A DNA stretch of 39,001 nt from NCBI GenBank assembly GCA_016198325.1, contig JACQIV010000014.1:1-39001 (forward strand), written 5' to 3'. The notes under the pieces are model-generated. The model was not told the DNA's origin, made no database searches, and was given only the letters and a program-made list of their open reading frames with translations. Source of the stretch: Candidatus Curtissbacteria bacterium (GTDB lineage: Bacteria > Patescibacteriota > Microgenomatia > Curtissbacterales > GWA2-41-24). Shown one piece after another: positions 5,500 to 12,082 of the stretch. Each line of letters starts with the position of its first letter. Position 1 is the first letter of the stretch. A program made the position numbers and the translations under genes.

Positions 5500-5631
5500 C
5501 GTTCCGTTGTCAGACCTTGTGCCCATAACACCCATGACCCCATTGATCCTTCTTGTTTTCATACTTGTAAAATTGCAAATAATACTTTTAAAATATAGCG
5601 AAACTTAAATTGAATCTGCCCCCAAAGATTA

Positions 5632-6738
5632 GTGGCGAAAAAAAGTTCCTCAAATAAGTATTTAAAAACAAAAGTTCGTGCTATCGAGGTAAAGAAGAAA
5701 CCCCTCGCACAACTTCTAAAAGAAATGTCCCAAACAGGATTCCAAGGCAGGACACTTGCAGAAGTAGTTGATGTCTGGGAAAAGATGGCCCGTGATCCGA
5801 AAACAACCATCATACTGGGCTACGCAGGTTCACTTTCAACAACCGGCCAGTGGAAAATCATCAACTGGCTAATAGAAAACCGTTTTATTGATGTCCTGGT
5901 TGCAACAGGAGCAAACCTTTCCGAAGACATTGTTGAGGCGATGGGCAGGACCTACTGGAAGGGAAAGGTTAATGTTGACGATTACGATCTTTTAAAGAAC
6001 GACGTTAACCGCTACTACGACGTTTACGGATCCGAAATCGATTATATGGATATGACGGAATTAATTGCCGATTTTTACCTCAAATTCCTCAAGCCGGATA
6101 CCGCGTACTCCTCACGCCAACTTTTTTACCTGTTTGGCCAGTGGCTTTGGAAAAAGGGGATAAAATCAATTGTAGCAACTGCCGCCCACCACCAGGTCCC
6201 TGTTTTCTGCCCGGCAATTGTCGATAGTCCCTATGGCGACGCCGGCCTGATAGCAAAGAGTCAGGGTTTTCGGCTTATCCTCGATAACATGAAGGATTAC
6301 ACGGAATTCATGAGCATGGGCGAAAAGATCAAGCAAACTGGCGTCGTCTACATAGGCGGGGGAGTCCCAAAAGATTTTATCCAGCTTCTTGCAGTCACTT
6401 CCAATCTGATGTATCCAAACAGGGAAATTCCCGGCAGAAAACCAACTGTAACCCGTGCCGCCCGCGACAAAAAGTACATGGAAGCCTACTATTCCCATAA
6501 ATACGCAATCCAGATAACCACCGACGCGCCGCAATGGGGAGGCCTTTCGGGCTGTACTTTCGAAGAAGCGACCAGTTGGGGTAAAGAAGATATTAATGCA
6601 GATAAGGTCCAATGTTACTGTGACGCAACTATTGCCCTTCCGATCGTTACTCACGCCCTTGCAGAAGGGGTCAAAACCAAGCGCAAAGCCCCTAATTTCT
6701 CCTGGATCTTCAAAGAAGATGCCAAAGATGCCAAATGA
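5632..6738 (+). CDS. Deoxyhypusine synthase family protein (possible homospermidine-synthase-like enzyme)
   Basis: 368 aa, GTG start; GYAGSLSTTGQWKIINWLIENRFIDVLVATGANLSEDI; C-terminal EEATSWGKEDINADKVQCYCDATIALPI aligns with the DHS active-site Lys region (SWGK). Confidence 0.88.
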   Translation: MAKKSSSNKYLKTKVRAIEVKKKPLAQLLKEMSQTGFQGRTLAEVVDVWEKMARDPKTTIILGYAGSLSTTGQWKIINWLIENRFIDVLVATGANLSEDIVEAMGRTYWKGKVNVDDYDLLKNDVNRYYDVYGSEIDYMDMTELIADFYLKFLKPDTAYSSRQLFYLFGQWLWKKGIKSIVATAAHHQVPVFCPAIVDSPYGDAGLIAKSQGFRLILDNMKDYTEFMSMGEKIKQTGVVYIGGGVPKDFIQLLAVTSNLMYPNREIPGRKPTVTRAARDKKYMEAYYSHKYAIQITTDAPQWGGLSGCTFEEATSWGKEDINADKVQCYCDATIALPIVTHALAEGVKTKRKAPNFSWIFKEDAKDAK

Positions 6739-7600
6739 TATAGAGTTCCCGAGTCTCGAGCCGTTCAACTTTCTGGGTTTGGAAGACCAAACCCTGGAAA
6801 AAGCGAAAGCAGTAGTCTTTCCCGTGCCGTACAATTCAACAACCTATTGGAAGTCGGGCACCAAAGACGGCCCAAAAGCAATTATCGAAGCCTCACGTCA
6901 TATCGAACTATACGACCATGAATTTAAAAAGGACATTTCCAAAATCGGCATCTATACGCTTGCCGAACTCGAAGTTTCCAAAAATTCACCTAAAGAAACT
7001 ATTGACCGCATAACATCAGTCGTCGGTCAAATCCTAAGTAGGGAAAAGTTTCCTCTGATATTAGGCGGCGAACACTCAATCGCCCTTGGCGGAATTATGG
7101 CGGCAGCCCAAAACTTTAAAAATCTGTCAGTACTTCAACTAGACGCCCATACCGATTCAAGATTCGAATTTGAAGGGACAAAATATCACCATGGCTGCAC
7201 CATGCGCCGGGCGGTCGAAGATCTTGGTCTTTCAGTCACACACGTAGGTATCAGGTCCTCCTCGGAAGAAGAAGTAAAATTCCTGGAAAAATCCAAAAAA
7301 AACCACGTTTTCCCGGCTCCGGAACTGCCAACCGAAAAGATTATCAAAACACTAAAACCAAATGTTTACCTTACCTTCGATCTAGACGCGCTAGACACAT
7401 CCATCATGCCGGCAACAGGCACACCCGAACCCGGAGGCCTCAAATGGTATGAAACCTTGAAGTTACTAAAGACAGTTGCCAAAAGGCGCAATATTGTTGC
7501 TACCGATATCGTCGAACTAGACCCGATTCCCGGCATCCACGCACCTGACTTTCTTGCCGCTAAGTTGGCTTATAAACTTATTGGCTATAAGTTTACGTGA
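6719..7600 (+). CDS. speB: Agmatinase / ureohydrolase family protein
   Basis: LGGEHSIALGG, LQLDAHTDSR, LTFDLDALDTSIMPATGTPEPGG metal-binding motifs; likely start ATG 6719 or 6728, overlapping the upstream stop. Confidence 0.92.
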   Translation: MPKMPNDIEFPSLEPFNFLGLEDQTLEKAKAVVFPVPYNSTTYWKSGTKDGPKAIIEASRHIELYDHEFKKDISKIGIYTLAELEVSKNSPKETIDRITSVVGQILSREKFPLILGGEHSIALGGIMAAAQNFKNLSVLQLDAHTDSRFEFEGTKYHHGCTMRRAVEDLGLSVTHVGIRSSSEEEVKFLEKSKKNHVFPAPELPTEKIIKTLKPNVYLTFDLDALDTSIMPATGTPEPGGLKWYETLKLLKTVAKRRNIVATDIVELDPIPGIHAPDFLAAKLAYKLIGYKFT

Positions 7601-7653
7601 AGCTTATTGAACAAGTATTGATAGCTTTTACTTAAACGTAAATGAAGAAAGTT

Positions 7654-7675
7654 ATCCTGAGCAAGGTCGAAGGAT
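7654..7675. repeat. Short palindromic unit ATCCTGAGCAAGGTCGAAGGAT
   Basis: ATCCT...AGGAT outer arms; abuts the ghost agmatinase tail. Confidence 0.5.
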
Positions 7676-7717
7676 GATTTTTTGGCAGCAAAACTTGCCT
7701 ACAAGTTAATAGGGTAT
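7676..7717 (+). pseudogene. Ghost copy of the agmatinase C-terminus (DFLAAKLAYKLIGY)
   Basis: 14/14 aa identical to 7547-7588, 12 of 14 codons changed synonymously. Confidence 0.85.
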
Positions 7718-7780
7718 GCTCTAGGACAAGACCCTCGCAAAAGAATTGTTGTTTACAAAATCGTTCTAGCCAAAAAGCGT

Positions 7781-7808
7781 AACCATTTTAGATATTGCTA
7801 AAATGGTT
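7781..7808. promoter_or_regulatory. 11-bp perfect inverted repeat upstream of dinD-like gene (candidate operator)
   Basis: AACCATTTTAG-ATATTG-CTAAAATGGTT. Confidence 0.5.
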
Positions 7809-7829
7809 TATTCAGTGTATTATTTTTTT

Positions 7830-8987
7830 ATGTCCTCAGGTCTAAATCAGCTTCAGAGCAACCTAGAATCGCTTAAAAAGACAGCTGAAGATTTAGAGTA
7901 TTGGTCAGCAAGGGAGCTAATGCCCATGCTTGGCTACACTAATTGGGAAGGCTTTAAGACAGCCCTTAATCGTGCCAGAGAATCATGCCAACAAACAGGG
8001 CAAGTTGTTTCAGACCATTTTCGGGGCGCCCTAAAAATGGTCGATATCGGGTCCGGAACAAAAAGAGCAATCGAGGATCTACTATTAACACGTTATGCTT
8101 GTTATCTGGTTGCTCAAAATGGAGATCCCCGAAAGCCTCAAATAGCTGCGGCTCAACGCTATTTTGTTGTAAAAACACGAATGCAAGAGGTTTGGGAACA
8201 AAGGGCAATTGAAAGCAAGCGCTTGGAAGAACGAGATAAACTTAGAGATACTGAGAAAAAAATTGAGCGAACGGTTTACCAACGAGGAATTACACAAAGC
8301 TTTGAGTTTGCAACCTTTAAAAATAAACATATTGAGGCGCTCTATGGGGGAATCAATACACCTGATCTGAAAAAAAGACGAGGAATTCAAAAAGATAGGG
8401 CACTTGCAGATTTCGATACAGATGTCGAACTCAAAGCTAAAAGTTTTGCACTCGGAATGACAGATCATAACATTCGGACAAAAGATTTGGTCGGAAGAGA
8501 TAGGCTAGAACATGAAGTAATAGCGAATAGTACAGCTACAAGAAACGCACTATTAGCCAGAGGTATTATTCCTGAGAATCTTGAACCTGAGGAAGACATT
8601 AAGAAAATTGAGAAACGCAGAGCAAAGGAATTGCATGCGTTAGAGGCTACAGGATCACACAAAGCGATAGAAGAATCTTCAAGGATAAAAGAGCTTGAAA
8701 GACAATTTAAGCAAACCAACACTCAAGCACAAAACAAAATCGTTTCAAAAAGCAGACAGAAATCAAATTATGCGGGTTGTTTTAACGTCAAGCTGCCGCA
8801 AGAAGTTACAAGAGTGCATTTATCAAAACTATATGAATTATTCAGAGACAACCCAGGAATTACTACAATAATCTTGGAAGTTCCTGGAGTCAATTCTACT
8901 AGGCAATTTAAAGTTCCGTTTCAGGTGAATGTGACGGATGACGTAAAAATAAAACTTAAAAAAATATTAAATTCGTCAGAAGGATAA
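7830..8987 (+). CDS. dinD: DinD-like (BRO-N) protein with C-terminal extension resembling the DNA Pol III alpha C-terminal domain
   Basis: EYWSARELMPMLGYTNWEGFKTALNRARESCQQTG...YACYLVAQNGDPRKPQIAAAQRYF; C-term LSKLYELFRDNPGITTIILEVPG...KVPFQVNVTDDVKIKLKKIL; start 7830 preferred over 7803. Confidence 0.85.
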   Translation: MSSGLNQLQSNLESLKKTAEDLEYWSARELMPMLGYTNWEGFKTALNRARESCQQTGQVVSDHFRGALKMVDIGSGTKRAIEDLLLTRYACYLVAQNGDPRKPQIAAAQRYFVVKTRMQEVWEQRAIESKRLEERDKLRDTEKKIERTVYQRGITQSFEFATFKNKHIEALYGGINTPDLKKRRGIQKDRALADFDTDVELKAKSFALGMTDHNIRTKDLVGRDRLEHEVIANSTATRNALLARGIIPENLEPEEDIKKIEKRRAKELHALEATGSHKAIEESSRIKELERQFKQTNTQAQNKIVSKSRQKSNYAGCFNVKLPQEVTRVHLSKLYELFRDNPGITTIILEVPGVNSTRQFKVPFQVNVTDDVKIKLKKILNSSEG

Positions 8988-9033
8988 ATAGGTGAAAAGC
9001 AGGTACAAACTTAAACAGTTGGATTGACAGCAT

Positions 9034-9074
9034 CGATACAATTTGATGGTTACAAAAACGTTTATCAAGCTAAT
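9034..9074 (+). pseudogene. Ghost copy of the 5' end of the 12083 membrane-protein gene
   Basis: 34/41 nt identical to 12071-12111; MVTKTFIKLM versus MVPKTVIKLI. Confidence 0.65.
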
Positions 9075-9076
9075 GT

Positions 9077-11983
9077 CTACCTCAGTTCAACTTTAGTTTG
9101 GATATCAGTTTCTGATACTTCCAGATTAAGTTTATTGTCCGAAAAGGTAGGGACTACATAGTTATTATTCAGCTGAATATCCACAACCTCCCAAGGCAAA
9201 AAGGGTAGTCGGACAAACGTTTTTCCGCCACATCCGTTTTGCACATTTAAAGTAAATGTCTTTGCACTTTTTTCCCAATCAACAGAAATTTCCCCGCATG
9301 ATGCTTTAATGCTAGTAGATGTTTTGTCGGTAATAATCATTGGTTCAATAGTCGTACTTTTAAAACCGGGGGATGCCGGCCTAATTCCTCCAACATATGC
9401 CGGCAAAAAGTAAGTTGGCGTTCCGGCCCAGGCGTGGGTTAAAGAGCCCTGGGGACGCGAACTAATTCTTGGGTCAAAAGTCTCCCAGGTAGAGACTGCA
9501 CCGCGTCTTAACATTTCGCCCCAGTAATTATTCATTAGATTCTTAACTTGCACCGCATCCCCGAATTGTTGCATAACCATTAAATAAAACAGGTTAAAGT
9601 AACCCGTTATAAACGTCGGGTTTTTAACTCTGAGACTATCGTAAATAATTTTGGAAAATTCAGCATCAAAAGTGTTGCTCCAAAGAAAAGCAACCAGTGC
9701 ATGCGGCTCCAATTCCGCCAAATTTTTACCGGAAAGCAGTTCGCGGTTTTTTTGCACCTGTTCCTCTTTTAATTTTCCGAATTTTTCCGATTTCTGCACA
9801 TCTCTTTCTTTATACAATTCCTCTAAATCAGCCAGGTTTTTAGTATAGAAGGCTGTAAGGATTAGATTTGTATCGGAAGGCACATCTCCGGGCGAAAGAT
9901 GGTTAGTCCAGCCCGTTAAGACTTGACCAAGTTCCAAATCGGTTGGCCTGTCTTGGTTAATAAGCCCGAATGGCTCTTGCAATTTCGAAACAGCTGCTAC
10001 AATTTTCTCTGCCGTCGGAAGCAGCTGGTTTAAAGCCTCCTCATCATTGGTGTAAAGGTAGTAATCCTTCAAGAAACTGACAAAAAGAAGATTATAGGAA
10101 AGAATCGTTTGATTAAGACTTGAAGGGAATACTGTTTCGATTAAACCGGTCGGTTTCTGGCTCGAAGCATATTCATATAAAGCCTTTTTTGCCAGGTCAC
10201 GGCTATCAAGGCTATAAAAACCCATAAGCATCTCAACGTAGGCATCTCCAAGGTATTGTGAACGTTCGTGAACAAAACTATCCTCAAACTGGTTCTGCAT
10301 GGCATATTTAAGAGTATCCTCGCCTAGTCTGTAAGTTTTATTTAATAATTCGTCGGAGCTTTTAAAATCGCCGACTTTGCCGGCCGGATAACTAACGGCA
10401 AAAAATTTAACTGATGTATCCACGTCCGCATCTGGCTCAGTTGTAACTTTAATTAATCTCATACCTCTCCGGCCGAAAGTTTTATAAGTAAATTCTCCAG
10501 CTCTATCAGTAATAATTTTATCTTTCTGGACCATGCTGCTTTCCCAATCCTCAAAATACTGAGCTGTTATTGTTGTTGAACCGGAAGCTTTAAAAGTAAA
10601 TTGGGGAAAACCGGCCACGACCTTTTCAAAATCAAACCAGAGCGCCCCGTCTTTTTTGAATACTAACTTAGGAGAAATCTCGCTATATGATAACGGCAAA
10701 ATTTCTCGTGCATAAAGATTTTGTTTCTTTTCGACTAAAGCCTCTTTCGCATTTTTAAACTTAACTGCCTGAGGGGTAAAATCATATATTTCGCGATAAA
10801 GCCCGGAGTTAATTTCATGATGTTTGACCTTGGCGCTTTCAAGGTCAACCTTTTGCCATCCGGTTTGGCCTGTAACCAGCCATGTCCGGTTAGTAGATAA
10901 AGCTAATTTTAACCCTGCAATTTCATAAGAAAATTCGGCCAAAACCCCGCCCGGAATTTGTTTTTGGAAATGAGTTTCGTGGTTATAGCTATAAGCAAAA
11001 ATCTCAATTTGATTTTTCCCTTCACGAAGGAAAGAAGATAAATCGTACTCGTCAAAATAAAGCCTTTTTTCATCTATCGGTCCGGGTCCTTCTCCAACAA
11101 ATTGGCCATTTAAAAAAAGCCGATACCTGCTTTTAGCAGTAATTGTTGCTTTGGCTTGTTTTGCAAACTTACCCGGGACATATAAATTCTTTTTAAATTT
11201 AAGATATTGATCATTCGTCTGTATATCTGCCCAGATCCATCTACTCTCGCCAAACTGTGAAGTAGTTTTAACACTCAATATGCAAAAAACAAAAAATATA
11301 CCAACAAGCACAAATATTGCTGTTTTAAGTTTAAATTCAGGTCTTAACAAGGGATAAGTTAACATCAGCAGAGATAAAATAAGTAGAAAAACGGGTAAAT
11401 AGTCAAAAAAACTAATCGGAATGAAAAATAGTTGCAATTTGTTAAAAATAATATTTTCAAGTGGAGCCGACCAAATTGCTCGGCCTAACCATAATCCAAC
11501 TACGACTAATATCGAAAAATAATACAAATTATTAACCTTGTAATTTCTTTTCCATAAGATCATTATTGTCAAAATTACCGGCGTATAAATAAGACTTTGG
11601 AGTTTGTGCTGCTTAAGGTTTACAAATGTTTCAATGTAAATAAGCAAACTGGAAGCAAGAAACAACCCGGTAGACACGTCATTCTTCTTTTTAAAATGGA
11701 GAAAAGTTAACGCCCATAACGCAAAAAGCAGAGTATTCGGTAAGTATTTTATAGTTGCAATATAAGATTGGTTCTGAAGGTAAGGAATTAAAAATGACGG
11801 AAACGATGTGAACTTACTGTTTAATATAAGGGCAAGCTCAAGTAATTTTTTACTAATTGCGGAATGTTGGTAGTAAACATCGGTTGGAATTGCAAAATAG
11901 ATAAGAAGAATTAACAATACGTCAAATGCAAGTATCGCCAGTATCGGCAAGCGTAGCAACTTTCTTTGTTTAATCCGTGTCAT
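9077..11983 (-). CDS. Polytopic membrane protein fused to a GH78-like alpha-L-rhamnosidase
   Basis: About 7 hydrophobic segments at the N-terminus; then rhamnosidase N-like domain (RYRLFLNGQFVGEGPGPIDEKRLYFDEYDLSSFLREGKNQIEIFAYSY) and catalytic-like region (TWETFDPRISSRPQGSLTHAWAGTPTYFLPAYVGGIRPASPGFKSTTIEP). Confidence 0.85.
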   Translation of the reverse strand: MTRIKQRKLLRLPILAILAFDVLLILLIYFAIPTDVYYQHSAISKKLLELALILNSKFTSFPSFLIPYLQNQSYIATIKYLPNTLLFALWALTFLHFKKKNDVSTGLFLASSLLIYIETFVNLKQHKLQSLIYTPVILTIMILWKRNYKVNNLYYFSILVVVGLWLGRAIWSAPLENIIFNKLQLFFIPISFFDYLPVFLLILSLLMLTYPLLRPEFKLKTAIFVLVGIFFVFCILSVKTTSQFGESRWIWADIQTNDQYLKFKKNLYVPGKFAKQAKATITAKSRYRLFLNGQFVGEGPGPIDEKRLYFDEYDLSSFLREGKNQIEIFAYSYNHETHFQKQIPGGVLAEFSYEIAGLKLALSTNRTWLVTGQTGWQKVDLESAKVKHHEINSGLYREIYDFTPQAVKFKNAKEALVEKKQNLYAREILPLSYSEISPKLVFKKDGALWFDFEKVVAGFPQFTFKASGSTTITAQYFEDWESSMVQKDKIITDRAGEFTYKTFGRRGMRLIKVTTEPDADVDTSVKFFAVSYPAGKVGDFKSSDELLNKTYRLGEDTLKYAMQNQFEDSFVHERSQYLGDAYVEMLMGFYSLDSRDLAKKALYEYASSQKPTGLIETVFPSSLNQTILSYNLLFVSFLKDYYLYTNDEEALNQLLPTAEKIVAAVSKLQEPFGLINQDRPTDLELGQVLTGWTNHLSPGDVPSDTNLILTAFYTKNLADLEELYKERDVQKSEKFGKLKEEQVQKNRELLSGKNLAELEPHALVAFLWSNTFDAEFSKIIYDSLRVKNPTFITGYFNLFYLMVMQQFGDAVQVKNLMNNYWGEMLRRGAVSTWETFDPRISSRPQGSLTHAWAGTPTYFLPAYVGGIRPASPGFKSTTIEPMIITDKTSTSIKASCGEISVDWEKSAKTFTLNVQNGCGGKTFVRLPFLPWEVVDIQLNNNYVVPTFSDNKLNLEVSETDIQTKVELR

Positions 11984-12082
11984 CGCCTGAGAGATATTAC
12001 AATTTTATCGCATGCAAAATCGTCGGCTATAGTCTCTCCTTTAATTGACACCCACCGCAAGTTCCCCCTACGATAGAATTTG

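Follow-up and report, generated by a model that had tools for sequence, protein, structure and literature searches.

Just downstream of the intact agmatinase gene lies a 42 bp segment (ghost 1) that, judged by the peptide it encodes, is the remnant of another agmatinase (arginase family) gene. It probably has no function of its own, and we consider it fairly likely to be what remains of the 3' end of an earlier agmatinase, xenologous to the present one, after stacked transfers and displacement. The features of the locus are collected in Table 1, with positions numbered in the window, i.e., the whole stretch of 39,001 nucleotides analyzed.

Table 1. Features in and around the agmatinase locus.
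Feature	Position	Strand	Evidence
Deoxyhypusine-synthase-family gene (DHS), operon partner of agmatinase	5632..6738	+	Pfam DS 7e-87
Intact agmatinase, tail ending in DFLAAKLAYKLIGYKFT and stop	6719..7600	+	TIGR01230 3e-67, above cut-off
Resident 14-codon agmatinase tail copy	7547..7588	+	Encodes DFLAAKLAYKLIGY
AT-rich spacer, 53 bp, 26% GC	7601..7653	.	Base composition
Palindrome ATCCTGAGCAAGGTCGAAGGAT, 22 bp	7654..7675	.	One further genomic copy, C5:6326
Ghost 1, 3' stub of second, diverged agmatinase (DFLAAKLAYKLIGY)	7676..7717	+	Tail identity, profile
Open continuation of ghost frame, 27 codons, ALGQDPRKRIVVYKIVLAKKRNHFRYC and stop	7718..7801	+	No match found
Hairpin AACCATTTTAGATATTGCTAAAATGGTT upstream of dinD, start of conserved dinD unit	7781..7809	.	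G105 DNA similarity, fold
dinD / Bro-N gene, foreign	7833..8987	+	PRK11525 1e-87; 83% identical in G105
Membrane-anchored alpha-L-rhamnosidase-like gene, foreign to order	9077..11983	-	Pfam Bac_rhamnosid6H; absent from 14 relatives
Possible ghost 2, NFIACKIVGYSLSFN and stop, agmatinase-tail-like minus 4 codons, unproven	12001..12048	+	BLOSUM 37
Native promoter region of downstream gene; right end of insert	12042..12077	+	TAATTGACAC and CCTACGATA with equal spacing in G011 (L111), 24/36

The resident tail and ghost 1 encode the same residues at 14 of 14 positions, from DNA that is identical at 27 of 42 nucleotides (64%). Two of the 14 codons agree, those for F and the last Y, and the identity at first, second and third codon positions is 11, 14 and 2 out of 14, respectively, with third positions being saturated. 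The coordinates and counts given for this pair in the first-pass annotation were exact on recount. A chance match was ruled out as the origin of the ghost by shuffling and by profile search: in 300 shuffles of positions 7601-7832, the closest 14-mer reached 8/14, and an agmatinase-tail profile recovered the ghost in the window with an E-value of 1.7e-7. Compared with the conserved agmatinase tails of other families, the ghost peptide is identical at 11-13 of 14 residues. The ghost was not found in viral contigs, and no known RNA element was found.

Ghost 1 lies in the same reading frame as the agmatinase, with five stops between them in addition to the gene's own stop (7598-7600); these in-frame stops ruled out a read-through or frameshifted alternative C-terminus. 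No intact gene is attached to the ghost, with stops and an unrelated palindrome directly upstream and no further remains of a second gene seen between 7601 and 7675. On the other side, the frame is open past 7717 to a TAA at 7799-7801, reading YALGQDPRKRIVVYKIVLAKKRNHFRYC, and searches with the 27-codon continuation found no homologue. The first-pass annotation had asked whether the start of this continuation, ALGQDPRKRIV, is the native C-terminus in other strains. Among the agmatinases compared, which come from outside the genus, none ending in this way was found, and native tails are short (KFT, IFS, SLIKEIR, ATSD). The ghost might also be read as part of a small translated ORF (39 aa from a TTG at 7682) or of a dinD leader peptide, with an AAGGA motif 7 bases upstream of the TTG and 39 open codons in its favor. 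However, the AAGGA is part of the palindrome, the continuation has no homologue in searches, and the region upstream of dinD in G105 lacks the ghost ORF, which leaves this reading with hardly any probability.

From the codon pattern, the parent of ghost 1 is an agmatinase that diverged long ago under protein-level selection, and recent duplication was ruled out by the nucleotide identity and the two codons in common. The resident tail shares 28-33 of 42 nucleotides with well-conserved agmatinase tails of other genera and families, and 23 of 42 with two poorly conserved tails. Since the divergence between ghost and resident tail is about that between agmatinases of other families, ghost 1 is the 3' end of an agmatinase with its own evolutionary history. 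If the peptide were coded twice independently with the codon usage of the window, the two versions would be expected to agree at 32.3 of 42 nucleotides (P(<=27) 0.006), so that the difference is a little above the independent-coding expectation, a single post-hoc figure that is given no weight. Divergence under protein-level selection followed by capture, as put forward in the first-pass annotation, is therefore upheld by the saturated third positions and by an identity between own tail and ghost no higher than that between own tail and other genera.

The locus was compared with the rest of the order in a set of 15 genomes including the source genome (one family, 14 genera), in which all relatives belong to other genera. 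DHS, agmatinase and rhamnosidase were found in none of the 14 other genomes, and the same holds for full-length dinD, whose matches there were C-termini of DNA polymerase III alpha-like proteins. Nearly all relatives of the order show synteny for the flanking genes, namely the PEGA-domain gene and those at 12080, 12620 and 13093. In 11 of the 13 regions compared, the interval between the PEGA gene and the 12080 homologue measures 31-204 bp. Since the syntenic relatives are free of agmatinase and the promoter region of one of them, G011, matches that of the window, the segment from about 5500 to 12041 (about 6.5 kb) is a foreign insert. It contains DHS, agmatinase, ghost 1, dinD and rhamnosidase, and no recombinase or integrase gene was found within it. 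Lying inside this insert, ghost 1 does not represent the tail of an ancestral agmatinase native to the chromosome. The earlier suggestion of allelic replacement from a diverged relative was the better of the two mechanisms originally offered, but the displaced agmatinase would itself be foreign, given that an agmatinase occupies the site in none of the 14 other genomes of the order.

In the relative G006, three different genes on about 2.8 kb occupy the same chromosomal spot (L120, G006:C28, 856-3380), one of them dihydrodipicolinate-synthase-like by eye, which indicates a variable site. In the loci L116, L119 and L121 of relatives, the short gap between PEGA gene and 12080 homologue consists of degenerate AATTGG- or TCAGA-like repeats.

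With regard to the junction, the only other copy of the palindrome in the genome is intergenic and longer, reading TCATCC...GGATGA. The GGATGA of the window palindrome (7672-7677) overlaps the first ghost codon; the ghost D may thus come from the palindrome, with the break within a few bases of 7676, and secure ghost homology begins at F (7679). In terms of its position, the palindrome is supported as the breakpoint marker that it had been suggested to be. Contigs of two related organisms wrongly joined through the short palindrome during assembly would also put the junction exactly on the repeat, and the assembly is fragmented (29 contigs). Such a chimera is nevertheless very unlikely, as the left and right flanks are neighbors in relatives and the partner contig would require the palindrome inside an agmatinase reading frame.

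In the favored history of displacement, foreign DNA would have entered on several occasions between the PEGA-domain gene and the 12080 gene. A diverged DHS-agmatinase operon arriving there would have displaced an older agmatinase, the far end of the operon joining illegitimately at the palindrome, just inside the last codons of the older gene, which would have been left stranded before dinD. We infer this order of events, as well as homologous joining at one end combined with illegitimate joining at the other. The outcome resembles xenologous in situ displacement with a leftover fragment, where a diverged orthologue likewise occupies the place of the older copy with the old end beside it, and the divergence between stub and resident gene is at the level of orthologues (27/42 vs. 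28-33/42 nucleotides). It differs in that the older copy was here itself acquired, and in that only 14 recognizable codons remain. Homology-facilitated illegitimate recombination, with one homologous and one illegitimate end, is a described process (e.g., PMC3240628). It would be expected to leave one side of the junction clean and to truncate the resident gene at the other side; at this locus the outcome alone is visible.

Against displacement, the informative length is only 42 bp and the source lineage is not placeable, and the open 27-codon continuation matches no known agmatinase tail. If displacement is correct, the ghost would be a fossil of one spot in a reduced CPR genome that acquired this polyamine enzyme repeatedly, from donor lineages so diverged that agreement survives only at the protein level. 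Ghost 1 is in this sense a real but ordinary scar of horizontal transfer.

The window agmatinase is 68, 66 and 49% identical to those of G153, G055 and G247, respectively, and DHS is 71% identical in G153, where it also lies upstream of agmatinase. A pair of complete agmatinases of this type occurred in none of the genomes searched, a result that argues against standing tandem paralogues. A tandem paralogue or second acquired agmatinase downstream that later lost all but its final codons by deletion, without any displacement, would leave the ghost as it is, directly downstream and in the same orientation. Moreover, and equally in line with displacement, piecemeal deletion of an agmatinase is seen independently in G162, of another family, whose ruined agmatinase persists as three short blocks (residues about 25-57, NVYLSFD, and a frameshifted MSAPDFLAAKLAYKIIGYATSD) and is of separate origin, retaining the same tail among its blocks. 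Even so, with the pair of complete genes in no genome searched and nothing more of the second gene within 7601-7675, loss of a downstream copy is judged unlikely. The ruined gene of G162 is located at L012 (G162:C2), about 1430-1600 on the minus strand, near an ISXO2/IS1595-like transposase gene (read from translation).

Some prophages integrate into the 3' end of a protein gene and supply a replacement tail, as at icd. Integration of this type gives a synonymously differing gene tail and a displaced old tail, as found here, although this locus has no element, integrase or identical core. In the corresponding scenario, site-specific elements would have entered at the agmatinase 3' end, each supplying a recoded tail and shifting the previous one outward, and ghost 1 would be an attR remnant after deletion of the element in between. 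Tails stacked in the same orientation fit with it, as does a possible second ghost, which lies where the dinD-rhamnosidase segment ends on the side away from ghost 1 and whose starting codon nearly coincides with that of ghost 1. On the other hand, the insert has no recombinase gene and only 87 bp lie between resident tail and ghost. In addition, third positions differ throughout, with no long run of identical bases between the tails that could be a core, and no downstream tail copy was seen at any other agmatinase locus in the approximately 190 kb scanned, empty-site loci included. An icd-like integrating element, the other mechanism of the first-pass annotation, is accordingly hard to sustain and somewhat less probable than the loss of a downstream copy.

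The possible ghost 2, located at the very right-hand edge of the insert and oriented like ghost 1, resembles the G055 agmatinase tail NFLAAKLAYKIIGYSLIKEIR minus four codons. Its ungapped BLOSUM score equals the best chance match elsewhere in the window, and 0.05% of shuffles of its own 99-bp segment reach it (P 0.0005), for a segment that was spotted by eye. In the agmatinase-tail profile search of the window it was not significant and went unreported. As a second agmatinase stub it is only suggestive. If real, the first-arrived agmatinase would have ended there, and dinD, rhamnosidase, ghost 1 and the present DHS-agmatinase pair would have come later. Two breaks near the same codon would then count against displacement, since illegitimate joining does not predict them. 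With three tails then stacked around dinD and rhamnosidase (at 7547, 7676 and about 12001), the agmatinase 3' end would have been struck two or more times at almost the same codon. This would be a repeated and possibly site-guided accretion of cassettes in a CPR genome, with the frame restored each time and no recognizable integrase, an extended reading that we hold to be doubtful. A real second ghost would make repeated targeting of a gene 3' end testable in CPR bacteria.

Downstream of the ghost, dinD has its 83% identical homologue in a distant family (G105), and from its distribution the gene is itself mobile. The DNA similarity to G105 begins at 7782, shortly 3' of ghost 1. An arrival of the ghost as a regular component of the dinD unit was not supported, since other dinD loci lack it. 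No relative of dinD was confirmed in viral contigs, and phage records do contain distant DinD relatives. The C-terminal residues of the dinD product, about 65 in number (about 311-375), show similarity to the C-terminal end of DNA polymerase III alpha from this genome and relatives, a possible domain fusion by sequence; the G105 homologue stops at about residue 281, without the polymerase-like stretch. The hairpin upstream of dinD folds at a z-score of -2.6 and could be an operator or a terminator. It has perfect 11-bp arms and is partly retained in the G105 homologue.
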